The notes under the pieces were generated by a model that had not been told where the DNA came from, made no database searches, and worked only from the letters and a program-made list of their open reading frames with translations. Positions 4,293 to 64,000 of a DNA stretch of 64,000 nt are shown here, piece after piece; positions within the stretch are counted from its first letter, which is position 1; every line of letters starts with the position of its first letter. The stretch spans positions 8,718,902-8,782,901 of the forward strand of contig NC_087076.1 of assembly GCF_026151205.1 (NCBI RefSeq). The letters are read 5' to 3'. Origin of the DNA: Bolinopsis microptera (Eukaryota; Ctenophora; Tentaculata; Lobata; Bolinopsidae). The position numbers and the translations under genes were made by a program.

Positions 4293-4349
4293 TGCACGCG
4301 AAGCGTGCATTGCGGCCGGAGGCGGCGGCCGAAGGCCGCCGCCTCCGGC
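4293..4349. repeat. Two perfect GC hairpins with GAA loops
   Basis: 4293-4309 reads TGCACGC-GAA-GCGTGCA, a 7-bp stem around the GCGAAGC core, which is known as an unusually stable DNA mini-hairpin. 4315-4349 is a 16-bp perfect stem (arms 4315-4330 and 4334-4349) around GAA. The first hairpin's sequence recurs at 60766-60784, inside another GC-rich repeat. Confidence 0.85.
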
Positions 4350-56424: not shown

Positions 56425-56490
56425 CTTGTCATAAGTTGTATGACCCGCCGCGCACGAGTGCGCGGCTCCCCCTGTATCGTAGAATTATAT
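56425..56490 (+). repeat. Repeat with GTTGTATGACCCGCCGCGC, second copy
   Basis: It matches 23797-23862: GTTGTATGACCCGCCGCGCA, GTGCGCGGCTCCCC and TGTATCGTAGAA occur in the same order. Confidence 0.8.
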
Positions 56491-56680: not shown

Positions 56681-56688
56681 GGCTAGGC

Positions 56689-56776
56689 TTGACATACGTT
56701 GCATGCCACTTTTCGCGCGCGAAGCGCGCGCCGCCGAATAATATCTCTGATATTTGTGATACGTAACATGTATCAA
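56689..56776 (-). mobile_element. MITE family B, copy 1 (8-bp TSD GGCTAGGC)
   Basis: 88 bp from TTGACATACGTTGCATGCCA to ACGTAACATGTATCAA, flanked by exact GGCTAGGC at 56681-56688 and 56777-56784. It contains the perfect hairpin CGCGCGC-GAA-GCGCGCG at 56714-56730. Inverted relative to copies 2 and 3. Confidence 0.9.
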
Positions 56777-56857
56777 GGCTAGGCTAGGTGAAGGCTAACC
56801 CTGGCCCTGACTTCAAACAAAAATGAATTTGTAGTACATTGTAGCGTTATGCATTGT

Positions 56858-56945
56858 AGGTTTACAACCTACCAGGATGCGCGCCGAGTTGGACTCGTCG
56901 ACGGTCCATGATATATGGAACAGATATTTTACGAGTATCACCCGT
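56858..56945 (-). repeat. GGGTGATACTCG repeat, inverted copy
   Basis: It begins with the perfect hairpin GTAGGTTTACAACCTAC, continues GCGCCGAGTTGGACTCGTCG and ends GAGTATCACCCGTTA, the complement of 1683-1785. Confidence 0.8.
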
Positions 56946-57334
56946 TATTGTAGCGCGATGCACTACTGGGTCGCGCGCGCATCAAATAATGCTTCTCGCA
57001 ACCACGTATGCAAATCGGCGAGATGCGAAGGATTGACATCGTGAATCAACACCCGTTAACGTTATGCATTATATTACTAAGCCACCCCGCTCATCAAATA
57101 ATTCTTTTCGCGACCTTTGTTAGATCGGCAAAATGCGCTATTGGGCGGGCCTCGCCGAGCTGCGAAGAATTGACATCGTCAATTAAAAACGAATGTTTTC
57201 AATAATTTATTCTGTTACAATTATGACGGTCGATCCACGATCATAGTGGATTTATAATTTAATTTTAATCCTGTGATAAATATGGATAACACAAAATTTA
57301 CACTGCACTGTAAATCCTGGCCTGTGTAATCCAG

Positions 57335-57412
57335 TTAACGGGTGATACTCGTAAAATATCTGTTCAGTCCAACTCGGCGCGTGTCCTGGTAGGTTGTAAA
57401 CCTACAATAATC
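57335..57412 (+). repeat. GGGTGATACTCG repeat, shortened copy
   Basis: TTAACGGGTGATACTCGTAA to GTAGGTTGTAAACCTAC, with the middle segment deleted relative to 1683-1785. Confidence 0.75.
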
Positions 57413-57441
57413 GATAAATATCGTGTAATTGCTTTATAAAT

Positions 57442-58441
57442 ACCCAGGAAACCTTACTGTTAGGGGCCTAACTTCGGAAGTAAAAGAGATAGAAACGTCT
57501 GGTTTTCAACAAAATGTTCGCCTTGTAAAAATAACGTTTCCCCCCAGGAGGAAAATTCAAAACAATGTAGATTTTGAATTATCGCGAAAAGTCATATTTT
57601 AGGCCTTATAAAACTGCGCAGCTTTAACTTTGCAGATTCTTGTTCTCTAATTGGCTGAATCGTATCACGTGGTACGTGGTACAATTGCATTCTTGAAATA
57701 ATTGAAGCGTGCAAATGCAATGAACTAACGAGCGCGCGCGGAGTTCAACAAGCTGTGAAAAGGCGATGTGTTTGGCTTATACTTGATACATGTTACGTAT
57801 CACAAATATCAGAGATATTATGTTATTTTCCGCCTTCGGCGGCGCGCGCTTCGCGCGCGAAAAGTGGCATGCAACGTATGTCAAGCTTATACTAACTCTA
57901 ATTGGGTATTTCGTCAAAAGTCATGCGAATCGATACTTATACATAAAACCGATACAAAGTTTAAAGACTTTCGGTTTCATTTTTAAAAGCATCCACTTTG
58001 ACAAAGCATAACTCGCCATCAACCCCCCCGCCCCCAACCCCCCCTTTGCAGCTTCTCGGCTATCGCATACCCAGCAGACCTTACTGGCTAGCGATATTAC
58101 TACAGGGTGATCGCCTTTTCACAGCTTGTTGAGCTCCGCGCGCGCTCGTGAGTTCATTGCATTTGCACGCTTCAAACATTCCAAATGCCAAAGATGCAAT
58201 TGTACCGCGTACCACGTGATACGATTCAGCCAATCAGAGAACAACAATCTGCAAAGTTAAAGCTGTGCAGTTTTATATGACCTAAAATATGACTTTTCGC
58301 GATAATTCAAAATCTACGTTGTTTTTAATTTCCCCCTGGGGGGAAACGTTATTTTTACAAGGCGAACATTTTATTGAAAACCAGACGTTTCTATCTCTTT
58401 TACTTTCAAAGTTAGGCTCCAGCCAGTAAGGTTTCCTGGGT
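57442..58441. mobile_element. 1-kb foldback element with ~330-bp arms
   Basis: The left arm 57442-57767 and right arm about 58108-58441 are inverted copies. Outer ends are ACCCAGGAAACC and GGTTTCCTGGGT. Shared inner words include AGAAACGTCTGGTTTTCAA, ATTATCGCGAAAAGTCATAT and TTGCAAATGCAATGAAC-type sequence. Arms differ at several sites, so it is older than the 5.2-kb foldback element. The loop holds a MITE family B copy. Parts of the arms also occur singly at 1240-1350. Confidence 0.85.
57783..57884 (+). mobile_element. MITE family B, copy 2 (8-bp TSD GCTTATAC)
   Basis: 102 bp from TTGATACATGTTACGTATCA to GGCATGCAACGTATGTCAA, flanked by exact GCTTATAC at 57775-57782 and 57885-57892. Two hairpins: CCGCC-TTC-GGCGG (57830-57842) and CGCGCGC-TTC-GCGCGCG (57843-57859). 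Nested in the loop of the 1-kb foldback element. Confidence 0.93.
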
Positions 58442-59649
58442 CACCCTGTAGTAATATCGCTAGCCGGTTGTTATATACATGCAAATTGATAGTTTTTTCT
58501 GTTATGGTATATAGTGTTATAAGTAGCCGGCTCCGTAACTAATAATCTAACTTGATCATTAAGCCGTACATCTTCCTTTGTATACCGCTTGTATTACCAT
58601 CATCGGCCCACAATTACACTTATTAGGAATCTAACAACTAAGATAGGGTGCCAGTTCCCATGCACTGCCGGGTAGCTGCCCCATATCTTATCATATCAAA
58701 CCTTACTAAAACTTAATCTCTCATCCGTATCCCCGTCGGCCAAGCTTATAGTTACTAATATTCCTCAAACAAGAGCCGGTAGCTTAGGACAACTTTAAAA
58801 TTTAGTATATGTAAGATTTAGTAAATATAGTGCGATAAGGAGTTAAGTAAATTATAGTTAACAATTGAGTCCCAGATCGTGAGACTGCATGAAGCCAGCA
58901 AGAAGACCTAAAGACCCGTGGAAGAGGCAGTTGACGGCGGTTGTGGAAGAGGCGGAGACACAAGAAACTTAGAAACACAGGAGGCAACCTAGCAGACCCA
59001 CCATCCTATAATCTCGGCCGGACCTCTTTAGTTTGTCCTTCCCGGCCGTGGTATTCCTGGCTACTCTATAAGTCCAGTCCTTACTAGCTCCTCTACTCTG
59101 CCCAAGAATTCCAGGCTGATACCTAATCCCTTACTATACCTTATAATCTTCTTCAAGCCTTGAGCGAGTATCAGCCCGTGGGCCTACGAGCACAATTAGG
59201 TGGGTCTGCGAATGTCTATCCTTAATTTAAATTATCCTTTCTAACAGTAATAGTTTTTTTAATAAAATCACCATTATAGTCGTTGTCCTTTGCAATTAGT
59301 GGTCTAAAACAGTAATTTTAATACTAATAGGCATTTTCATATTTGACCTACAGTAAAGTTTATAACACTTCTAATTTCGCCCACTTCTGTGTCTCTGATA
59401 TTAATTGTATTTACCGAACGACGTTTCTAACCTAATTATGCCTCAGGTCCTGTCCCCTCCTTACCTTCGCCTTTCTGCAATCGTCGTTCGACACTCTGCC
59501 CTACTTTAACTTCCACGTAGTTCCAGTTCCAGAGACACTAAAAATAGACTTTAGGAAGACGACATGTTGTCGCGTTAAATTATAGTTTGGTTCTTTTAGT
59601 ATTACGTGTAGATCCTTTTCTTTATATAATTTAATTCCCTTGATTATAT
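58442..59649. other. Unassigned, possibly old transposon interior
   Basis: No convincing frame. CCGGTTGTTATATA at 58464 faces ATATAACACCGG at about 60674, a possible ~12-bp inverted end pair of a larger degraded element that includes repeat D copy 2. The TCCAAGTC and CCTTAGGT words give no family clue. Confidence 0.3.
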
Positions 59650-59651
59650 CA

Positions 59652-60250
59652 GTAGGCGGTGCACGATAAAAATAAACTAAAAAGCTCGGATTTTCAAAAT
59701 TTTTGTACCATCGTTTTGTAGAGACTGTGAGAATTTTCACAGTACCAAATTTATTATACCTTTTTGAAATGATCAGTGAGTTTCTCCTAGGTGCCATATT
59801 TGATGGTGCGCGGCTTTTGGAGCAAAATTAGGTGTAAAAGTCGCGTAATTTGACGAAATTCGTTGATTTTTGTCGTATTATTCTGTCATATCTTCGGTTC
59901 CTGAACATGAATCATGCTAAAAATTTGTCAGAACCTTCCAAGCATACTTAACTACCGAACCTAATTTAGTTGGGGGAGATTGGCCTTGAATAAGAGGTCT
60001 AAAAATGACAAAATAGGTATAAATTCGTTGATAACTCAAATTCTGACCATCGAAATTGCTCAAACTAAATTAGGTTCAGTAAAACATAAATGTTTACGTA
60101 AGCTGACCAAATTTCAATACAATTGTTAAATGGGAAGTATTATAACTTTTCGATTGTTTCCAAAATAATGTGCTGGCCGAAATAAGAGCTAAAAAACCAT
60201 TCAGTGGTCAGCGCGCGCGTCTTATTGTCGATGGCGCACTGCCTAATATC
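59652..60250 (+). repeat. Interspersed repeat D, copy 2 (uninterrupted)
   Basis: It aligns with 12962-13665 in the same orientation, sharing GTAGGCGGTGCAC, GAGACTGTGAGAATTTTCAC, GATGGTGCGCGGCTTTTGG and GTGCTGGCCGAAAT. It lacks the MITE that splits copy 1, so it preserves the empty site. Confidence 0.85.
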
Positions 60251-60700
60251 AGTGTGTTCATTCTCTACTCTCCCTGTAATTTCAAAGTTAACCAACTCAA
60301 AACTAAACCTTCTACTTTCCGGAGACGTCGGCTCGGACGTGCGGCCCCTTAGTATCTGCTTCCTTAGGTCTATTACTAATACTGCCTTAAATTAAATAAG
60401 AAAGAAACACAAAATTGGCTGGGTCTTCCAACAAGGAGCCCAAGCAAAATAAATAATAGTTGAAAGACCAGCCATCTTAGTATTCTACTTTTACTTCCTA
60501 TCTAACTTGGTTCTGTTCCAGACGGCTAAACCGTGGCATAACACCTGAGTCTCTACCTTCCATCTGGACAGAATTATCCTACACTGAATATGTTCCATAA
60601 ATTCCAAGTCATCCATAAACTCCGCGTAAAGTAAAGTCAATTAAATACGGCCTTAAAATTATAATACCCGGATATAACACCGGTATATAAGGTTTCCTGG
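60251..60700. other. No gene seen
   Basis: CTGGGTCTTCCAACAAG at 60419 is partly complementary to TTGAAAGACCAGCC at 60461, forming a weak stem. No coding support. Confidence 0.35.
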
Positions 60701-60719
60701 GTAGTAATATTGAATATTG

Positions 60720-60840
60720 GATGCGCCGCGATGCATTGCTACATGTTGTATACCTATTACCTCTCGTGCACGCGAAGCGTGCACGCCGGCCGGCCGCGCG
60801 CGCTTCACGCGCGATCAAAAGGGGATGCTGAGCTGCGTGT
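60720..60840. repeat. GC-rich repeat with hyperstable hairpin
   Basis: 60766-60784 is GTGCACGC-GAA-GCGTGCAC (8-bp stem). It is followed by GCCGGCCGGCCGCGCGCGC and TTC/ACGCGCG half-stems. The hairpin is the same as the one at 4293-4309. Confidence 0.8.
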
Positions 60841-60859
60841 GTCAAGCGATGCACTGATT

Positions 60860-60972
60860 TGCTCTAACCAGAGCCCTCTCGCTTGCAGTAGCGCGCGACC
60901 GCCGAAGGTGGCAAATTCTATTTGTGAAACAAGCGCGTCACGCAGTACGCGTATACACATGTTTATGTGAAG
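60860..60972 (+). repeat. Repeat B, plus-strand copy
   Basis: TTGCTCTAACCAGAGCCCTC through GTGAAACAAGCGCGTCACGC to TATACACATGTTTATGTGAA. It is the most complete copy in the window. Confidence 0.8.
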
Positions 60973-61042
60973 AGATTAGGCGGAATGACAGGCTGCAAGC
61001 GCTGTGCAGTAACGAGCTAAAAGATAAAAACTTCATGATTTC

Positions 61043-61142
61043 TTGATACATGTTTCGTATCCAAATATCAGAGATATTATTATTTTTCCGCCTTCGGCGG
61101 CGCGCGCTTCGCGCGCGAAAAGTGGCATGCAACGTATGTCAA
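61043..61142 (+). mobile_element. MITE family B, copy 3 (8-bp TSD ATGATTTC)
   Basis: 100 bp from TTGATACATGTTTCGTATCC to GGCATGCAACGTATGTCAA, flanked by exact ATGATTTC at 61035-61042 and 61143-61150. Hairpins CCGCC-TTC-GGCGG (61088-61100) and CGCGCGC-TTC-GCGCGCG (61101-61117) are identical to those in copy 2. Confidence 0.93.
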
Positions 61143-61150
61143 ATGATTTC

Positions 61151-61845: not shown

Positions 61846-64000
61846 TCAAACCATATTTTTGACTTTATCAAATGCCTTTGTTGGTGCCCCAAATGCTTTA
61901 TCAAGAAAGTTAGGCTCTGGCTGGTTTTCATCCTCAGGAAGTGGAGGTGGCATCCCCCTATTGCGTGTTGGTACCGGAGGTGGAGTTTCTTGTGACCTGA
62001 AATTGTTATATTGTATTCAAGTTATGTGATGGGGAGGGGTGACGGTTTATAAATTTAGGACATGTACTGTGCTCTGTTTAAATTATGTAGCCTTAAAACG
62101 TAACACATCACACTCTGTATTACTGCAACATTTCATTATCGATTTCAGCCTTTTAAGTATACTGTGAAGTGAGCAGCAATTCCAAATTAATTGTGAATGA
62201 TTATTGCAGACTTCATTAGTCAACAAAGTTTACAATCTCAGATAATAACCTAAAAAGATTTGAGCTGTTTGGTATGTCTCTACTAGGTTAATCTTGTCTC
62301 ATGTCGCAACACCTGATTTTTGCTAAATTTCGTGACAATTTGCTGCAAAATGGCCGCGTACCTGTTCAACGCAGGTGTCACAGCATGGAACAAGGTTAAT
62401 CAGAAAACCATTATAATTGTGATCATCTTTTTAAGTTCACTAACCATATTTAAGAAGTTAGACTTTTATTTGTTCTGAAAAATTCGCCATTTTCCCGGTG
62501 ACAAATCCTAGTATACTTTCGGGACTACTTTGAACACGTTCCATTTCTTGCTCGATGGTAATTGGTTTCCTAAAATTATATGTATAAAGCAGTCTTACAT
62601 GGTCCGAAAGTCACCTCACCAACTGCACCCCCCTTACATTCATAGATAGCCATACTGAGATATATTAAACAGCTCAAATCAATTCGGGTTCACTTGTCCT
62701 ATGATATTATTTCATACATAATTCATATTCTTCAAAATGTCAGGTTATATACTTGATTCATTTTTATATTTAAGTAGTTAGTTTATGAAATATTTAACTT
62801 CCTTTATTTGAGCCAAGCCATTTATGTTTGGAATTATATACTCACACTGGTCTGTTACGAAGATATATCACCCTCACAACAACAATTGCAGCAATGATAA
62901 CGAGAACTGCAATGACTGCTCCAGCAATTGTAGCTGCATGGCTAGCTGAAGATAATTTGAAGATAACACATTCCATGTAGTAAATTTTTCTTTAGTCTCA
63001 AAAATAATATATTGAAATTGGAACTCTAGGTACTGAACAGTCCACAAATGTGAATGGTATAACAGTCGAACCCATATTCATAGTAAGTCCCTAATTTTTG
63101 GTGAGCTTAGATTTACTGTTGGGCATTATTATATGCAAGTGATCATAGTTTAAGCATATATTGAATCTCTTTAGAAACCTATCAAATTATCAAATTTTGC
63201 CATCAAATTTTGTCATCAAATTTTGCCATCAAATTGGGGCTGGATTTTGACTGTACAAAATGATTAAATCCTCTTACTTGGACATGATATGTCATACAAA
63301 TTTCCTGCTCCTGCACATTGTACATTAAACATATCTTTGTCTTTATTTGAGCAGGTAAACTTTAGCTCCTCTTTGTAGGATAACATTGATCCAGCTTTCA
63401 AAGTTGTTGTTTGCAATGTGGCTCTTTCATCAACACTTTGAATGACACATTTTTCTGAAACACAAACGTTGACAAAACATGAAATAGTGCTTGAATTTAT
63501 ATATATGTTCTAATTGTGTACAACATTATTGTCACTTTAAGCTATTACTGATTTAATATAAAAAAGTGTTATAGATAAACTGATAAACTGTATTTACTGT
63601 GCATTAGGAATACTAGGCAAGCTATGTAAAAAATTGAATAAACTTACTATAACATGTTGGTTGAGTATCAGTCTTACATAGAGCCTTGTTAGTTGTTTCA
63701 TATTCTAGACTGTAATTTGAATTACAAAATGTTGTTAGCGTTGTTCCCTCAGATACAGTATATCCAATGGTAGGAGAGCGGAAACCATTAGCCACATCTT
63801 TGACAGTGCATGTGACTGGAATATATAAATTATTAACTGCTCTACCAGGGTATAAGTTCGGGCATAAAGTCAGTCTTACAATTTAGTGTTCAGAGAATTA
63901 TAACCGAGTCAAATACATTGTATTATGTTTTTACCCAAACAATCAGAGACACTGTCCGAGCCTGTTGTGATAGTTTTCAGAGAATCTGCACAGTCAATGC
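61846..64000 (-). CDS. Sushi/CCP-domain type I membrane protein, 3' part (runs off right edge)
   Basis: Minus-strand exons, 5' to 3', are 63935-64000 (partial), 63648-63815, 63278-63454, 62846-62945, about 62517-62569 and 61846-61996. The first two complete exons are symmetrical phase 1-1 and each encodes one Cys-rich module. The one at 63648-63815 is a clear sushi/CCP repeat (VTCTVKDVANGFRSP...CNSNYSL...CKTDTQPTCY). The module at 63278-63454 ends GAGNLYDISCP. The next exon is a transmembrane helix (TIAGAVIAVLVIIAAIVVV) followed by basic RVIYLRNRP. The cytoplasmic tail is short and proline-rich (PPPVPTRN, PPPLPEDE) and stops at 61846-61848. The junction between the last two exons is uncertain: a donor at 62516 with an internal acceptor fits, while reading on gives a stop at 62458. 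It is probably a surface adhesion or complement-like receptor. Confidence 0.82.

Follow-up and report, generated by a model that had tools for sequence, protein, structure and literature searches.

Short hairpin-bearing elements in Bolinopsis microptera are probably deletion derivatives of a long hAT-type transposon

In a 64,000-nucleotide stretch of the Bolinopsis microptera genome (NC_087076.1, positions 8,718,902 to 8,782,901; hereafter the window), three copies of a short element, which we call family B, lie between different 8-bp target-site duplications (TSDs). These copies are probably non-autonomous derivatives of a hAT-superfamily transposon of about 8 kb, made by excision of the element and interrupted repair of the gap. 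The family is best read as a known kind of deletion derivative, extreme in degree. An earlier note on this DNA had described a miniature inverted-repeat transposable element (MITE) with a conserved hairpin; that claim now becomes one about a hAT family with a long partner. Among the leading titles in the open-access literature on MITEs, hAT ends and gap repair, we recognised no description of this family.

The three copies and their three different TSDs are present as the earlier note had reported. Copy 1 (56689..56776, minus strand, 88 bp) is flanked by exact repeats of GGCTAGGC (56681..56688, partner 56777-56784), copy 2 (57783..57884, plus strand, 102 bp) by exact repeats of GCTTATAC (57775..57782, partner 57885-57892) and copy 3 (61043..61142, plus strand, 100 bp) by exact repeats of ATGATTTC (61035..61042, partner 61143-61150). 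At up to three mismatches, a 20-nt right end matches three times in the window, against 0.00 expected from shuffled sequence, and a 19-nt left end also three times, against 0.05 expected. The terminal inverted repeats are short; in copy 2, 14 of 21 end positions are identical (57783-57803 against 57864-57884), and all seven differences are transitions. Three palindromes lie on the plus strand of copy 2: H1 (ATATC-AGA-GATAT, 57806..57818, read from the sequence), and the GC hairpins H2 (CCGCC-TTC-GGCGG, 57830..57842) and H3 (CGCGCGC-TTC-GCGCGCG, 57843..57859). Their counterparts in copy 3 are H2 at 61088..61100 and H3 at 61101..61117, both on the plus strand. The H3 of copy 1 (56714..56730, minus strand) has the same 7-bp stem, with a loop that reads GAA on the plus strand. 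The sequence of H3 is thus the same in all three copies; H2 is whole in copies 2 and 3, and copy 1 is a deletion derivative missing one H2 arm.

We searched the assembly from which the window is taken (264.65 Mb, 232 contigs), numbering the loci and elements retrieved for comparison L001 onwards. The right end TGGCATGCAACGTATGTCAA has 428 + 439 = 867 matches with at most two mismatches, against none for a control in which the pattern was written backwards. The left end has 289 + 282 = 571 matches with at most one mismatch (control 0 + 1), and both totals include long copies. Family B is short and non-coding, with inverted ends, duplications and a high copy number, as is usual in MITE definitions. 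Thirty copies were picked by similarity to a 118-bp query; their 8-bp duplication is exact in 27, carries one mismatch in one and is absent from two (L006 and L007 are one duplicated segment, and L001 and L021 are window copies). The earlier note's picture of a non-autonomous transposon family with TTGAYAYA-like ends and 8-bp repeats therefore extends well beyond the window, with ends shared genome-wide.

Paralogous sites that lack the insertion are also known. The joined flanks of copy 2 have matches of 89-97% that run through the insertion point at no fewer than 24 other places (51 rows; 40 of 194 candidates scored). The left flank of copy 2 belongs to one arm of a foldback repeat, so these matches reach only 8 bases beyond the duplicated 8-mer on that side; the foldback element (57442-58441) has arms of about 330 bp that are 91-93% complementary, and copy 2 sits between them. 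The joined flanks of copy 3 gave 28 weaker rows, one of which spans the insertion point well (74%, 1-121 of 131).

A similarity search makes the family look uniform; sampling by one end reveals a continuum of deletion derivatives. Our one-end sample comprised the first 30 right ends listed (L061-L090), which are exact matches in coordinate order on contig C1. Eighteen of them have an exact duplication within 180 bp, three more have one at a longer distance (L070, L071/L092 and L077/L091), and L064 has a duplication with one mismatch. The full 100-bp form occurs in only three (L072, L074 and L083). In five the matching left end is 1,280-7,868 bp off, with duplications checked in three; the remainder are shorter copies, interrupted copies or copies in which no left end was recognised. 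Across the 100 right ends listed, 52 have a partner among the listed left ends, 44 of them at 47-116 bp, with no dominant size, and 8 at 1,280-8,071 bp. The unpaired ends among those listed are 48 right ends and 17 of the 69 left ends; this pairing used exact matches, which favour young copies and miss left remnants shorter than 19 bp.

The smallest remnants are very small. L075 retains 33 bp between exact duplications, and L089 consists of 26 bp of the right end alone between perfect duplications; having no left end, it could hardly have moved as such. Another 20 loci, nine picked because they are short and eleven because their right end is unpaired, are excluded from the fractions above; 8 have an exact duplication and 12 have no exact one, including three (L103, L106 and L112) whose duplication has a mismatch. 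At some junctions there is filler that looks templated. A bystander copy in L023 contains a filler of repeated forward and inverted left-end pieces between exact duplications, and duplicated pieces are also found in L018/L083 (one locus) and L113. In Drosophila, polymerase theta leaves repeated or templated insertions after transposon excision. Two chosen junctions were found 5 and 11 times, each with both variants of the left end (4 T:1 A and 8 T:3 A). Such recurrence fits repeated formation of the same joins; slight amplification would explain it equally well. The centre of another family B remnant, L086, holds a nested short element (TTAACGGG...CTACAAC) flanked by the 8-bp repeat GAAAAGTG, and a sequence like this nested element occurs in the window at 57336-57408.

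Pairing right and left ends at long distance yielded the partner that the earlier note had sought. Elements of 3,512 bp (L091), 5,331 bp (L092) and 8,071 bp (L093) have family B ends and are each flanked by exact 8-bp duplications. Read against the MITE orientation, L093 contains a split gene, pieces of which resemble hAT by eye, and the hairpin end lies upstream of this transposase gene. One 99-residue piece has 21 genomic matches, 13 of them at 94-100%. The joined exon pieces are 47% identical to a 180-residue open reading frame (ORF) of a relative, L094, which itself matches the Hermes transposase (E=1.3e-4). As a two-sequence profile, L093 and L094 match Hermes at 3.4e-4, over a stretch with what we take to be the first two catalytic aspartates. 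This chain of sequence matches, taken with the 8-bp duplications, assigns family B to the hAT superfamily, with atypical TTGA ends. Searches of Pfam, NCBIfam and the PDB with the transposase pieces returned weak matches that we set aside as chance and that did not fit, the lowest being Mkg_C (0.00046, in a read-through frame) and GMP reductase (0.0037). A Helitron origin was set aside since 8-bp duplications are present; to our knowledge, Helitrons make no target duplications. L093 also harbours a minisatellite of 36.8 copies of a 91-bp unit (positions 4059-7413 of L093).

Internally deleted elements and MITEs have been attributed to abortive gap repair (PMC8700633), and a process of this kind probably produced the pattern in family B. 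A hAT transposase would excise the element and insert it between 8-bp target duplications. A sister copy would then serve to refill the broken donor site, with synthesis from both sides stopping early, and the ends would be joined with little microhomology or filler, leaving tens of base pairs of each end between intact duplications. Most copies would thus have been reduced in place. Recurring at hundreds of sites, this would give the continuum of remnants, from which similarity searches pick the class of about 100 bp. The hairpins are palindromes within the terminal 60 bp of one parental end, the one upstream of the transposase gene, and would be carried along. As duplexes they may be transposase-binding sites, and in hairpin form they may affect the points at which repair synthesis stops.

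A more conventional origin is a serious competitor, to which we give somewhat less than an even chance. A single internally deleted hAT derivative of about 100 bp may have been amplified by transposase acting in trans, its AT spacer slipping and the shorter forms arising by later deletion. The amplification of hAT MITEs after internal deletion is documented for Mar (PMC3517528). In family B one 100-bp sequence recurs unchanged in L014, L021, L022 and L028, each at its own site and with its own duplication, and another, of 97 bp, is common to L025 and L026. Such identity points to a form that moved as one unit and lowers our confidence in interrupted repair. The T-type spacers, too, mostly share one slipping pattern, but the 30 similarity-selected copies contain 24 distinct spacers. 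Left stretches match the parent end at 36-42 bp, with L011 including parent sequence beyond the others, which also sits poorly with a single founder, as do the scarcity of the full form and the lack of a dominant size among the short pairs. Duplicated flanks might have offered the same insertion with a differing inner structure; among L001-L090 there were three pairs with duplicated flanks (L006/L007, L018/L083, which is one locus, and L050/L051), none of them informative.

Several further observations weigh against repair-derived reduction of a hAT parent. Five sampled right ends (L062, L076, L079, L082 and L087) have no duplication in the stretch examined, with L088 and L090 falling outside this check, and L067, L096 and L102 have two ends and no exact duplication. 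Microhomology at the junctions, as a raw count, is 1-2 bp. No fitting Pfam model was found for the pieces of the partner transposase, and the link to hAT is indirect, with a modest E-value. The family's ends are TTGA...TCAA and not of the usual hAT CAG/TAG type; terminal bases of that type are usual for the superfamily without strictly defining it. A C-terminal dimerisation domain is usual in hAT transposases. We found no Pfam match to it in the read-through frames or C-terminal pieces of L093, where the gene is split and decayed. The partners examined all look decayed, and no active source was seen.

The earlier note had gone further, and taken the conservation of the GC hairpins as a sign of function in transposition. 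This is not supported, because stem changes are uncompensated in family B and the related family C, and because H3 is frequently lost. Both hairpins fall in the terminal 60 bp of the right end; both are found in L091 and L093, and L092 has H3 and part of H2. The complete 32-nt H3 end has 197 + 202 = 399 genomic matches against the 867 right ends, an approximate fraction as the 32-nt pattern was allowed up to three mismatches and the 20-nt pattern up to two. In our one-end sample, the whole length of H3 is kept in 15 of 30. The H3 hairpin is not conserved as a unit, and about half of the right ends are without a complete copy of it. The earlier note had named uncompensated stem substitutions as a refutation of its inference, and families B and C together gave no compensatory change in 987 pair cells, all departures being one-sided or pair-breaking; we rejected the argument for hairpin function from compensation within these families. 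Unchanged cells number 371/392 for H3 and 218/250 for H2 in family B, and 231/240 for H2 and 91/105 for H3 in family C. This count was pattern-based and covers copies with up to four substitutions; more damaged copies fall outside it, and some of the H2 rows are deletion joins.

The earlier note's own proposal, that the hairpins take part in transposition in a single-stranded or cruciform state, is very improbable. The perfect stems with their GAA/TTC loops would suit such a role, and in one of 15 family C H3 hairpins, that of the L082 right end (at 1667), the loop is inverted, with GAA replacing TTC without a change of strand, which suggests occasional processing as a hairpin or by template switching. 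The loss of complete H3 and the uncompensated stems speak against it. Furthermore, hAT transposition works on duplex DNA, and the hairpins that do form are on the flanking donor ends.

In the one-end sample, the retained stretch stops within H3 (near arm or loop) in 13 cases, within H2 (loop or far arm) in 10 and between the two in one. A breakpoint test gave P 0.0008, or 0.0014 when restricted to distinct junctions; it supposes that breakpoints are uniform and independent, and neither point is certain. Plain stalling does not account for the stops in the far arm of H2. A survey of 350 kb, made up of the window and loci chosen around B and C copies, covered perfect hairpins with a stem of at least 8 bp and a 3-nt loop; it counted 12 distinct inner stems with GAA/TTC loops and 5 in the next loop class. 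Perhaps the GAA-loop palindromes programme the fate of the element: gap-repair synthesis would stop or fold back there, so that most insertions would shrink at their sites to remnants of predictable size, and fold-back priming would both make and repair the palindromes in several families. We regard this idea as unlikely.

In two related families, C and D, some copies likewise carry GAA-loop palindromes close to the right end. The window contains one family C copy (60736..60845, plus strand, 110 bp) between exact repeats of GCGATGCA (60728..60735, partner 60846-60853), with a GAA hairpin of 9-bp stem at 60765-60785 and an H3 with one mismatch. At 30 loci found with this copy, the 8-bp match at the best-scoring limits is exact in 21, a count in which the limits look wrong in L048 and L060 and L050/L051 enter twice. 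A fragment at 4293-4349 of the window has the family C hairpin followed by a perfect GAA-loop hairpin with a 16-bp stem. Family D is represented by a fragment at 56426..56485 (minus strand, inner limit approximate) with the right end TTGTCATA... and the palindrome GCCGCGCAC/GTGCGCGGC, here with a shortened loop; no duplication was found for this fragment. An exact 8-mer match accompanies 11 of 23 family D right ends, that at window 23793 being low in complexity and doubtful.

The shared palindromes raise another possibility, that they are kept as duplex binding sites of the transposase, by analogy with the quasi-palindrome of the Hermes left end, which is bound by BED domains. In Hermes such a site is placed at bp 11-27 of the left end (PMC10368747). 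Hairpins are present in 65 of 94 fetched right ends of family B, 18 of 32 of family C and 21 of 25 of family D, although these loci are non-random. At the second pair counted from the loop, the D stem has A-T where B and C have G-C, a pair that thus covaries between the families, and a second D hairpin has one compensated pair (L005 against L086). With three-base loops, the perfect D palindrome occurs 997 times, with GAA/TTC in 46 of the 50 matches listed. Together with the position of the hairpin end upstream of the transposase gene in L093, these palindromes and the two covarying pairs make a palindromic binding site possible. The same role is hard to square with right ends of family B that have no complete H3, and with the lack of compensation within B and C. 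The loop also varies: it is GAA in 53 of 65 hairpins in B, 3 of 18 in C and 7 of 21 in D, where another 7 of 21 have GA. Seven more of the 18 in C are shifted in register or inverted, four with AAG and one with TTC being the same H3 and the rest other palindromes. The BED-like stretch in L093 was judged by eye only. Moreover, template switching can create and maintain stems, including compensated changes, without selection (PMC8794818). On balance, retention of the palindromes as binding sites is doubtful.

Elsewhere in the window, another 100-bp stretch (62294-62393) has an exact 8-bp duplication, GGTTAATC, and TTGTYYCATG-like inverted ends, and is perhaps a further hAT-type MITE. Three of four window ORFs have Pfam matches: a rhodopsin-type receptor, a reverse transcriptase and an FAD-dependent oxidoreductase.

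If family B did arise by interrupted repair, it offers hundreds of natural break-repair junctions within one genome as material for measuring how hairpins affect repair synthesis. Its parts have counterparts in known systems. Hermes is the relative of the partner transposase by sequence, and likewise has a subterminal quasi-palindrome beside a short terminal inverted repeat, its left-end site (bp 11-27) containing AAGT motifs (PMC10368747). H3 differs in being CG-only around a TTC loop and in lying at 26-42 bp. Mar, a Buster-group hAT MITE of Drosophila, is an internal deletion of a relic hAT element with 8-bp duplications and imperfect short inverted ends; it differs in its length of 610 bp, its CAG-type ends and its duplications fitting nnnTAnnn (PMC3517528). 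Family B has TTGA ends, short copies of 26 to 116 bp and GC hairpins. The Ds derivatives of maize Ac keep more of their ends, whereas in family B often just 10-40 and 26-60 bp of the two ends are left, and some remnants are one-ended. Nonetheless, Ds and family B are alike in being heterogeneous, internally deleted hAT copies, and for Ds the source described is abortive gap repair (PMC8700633).

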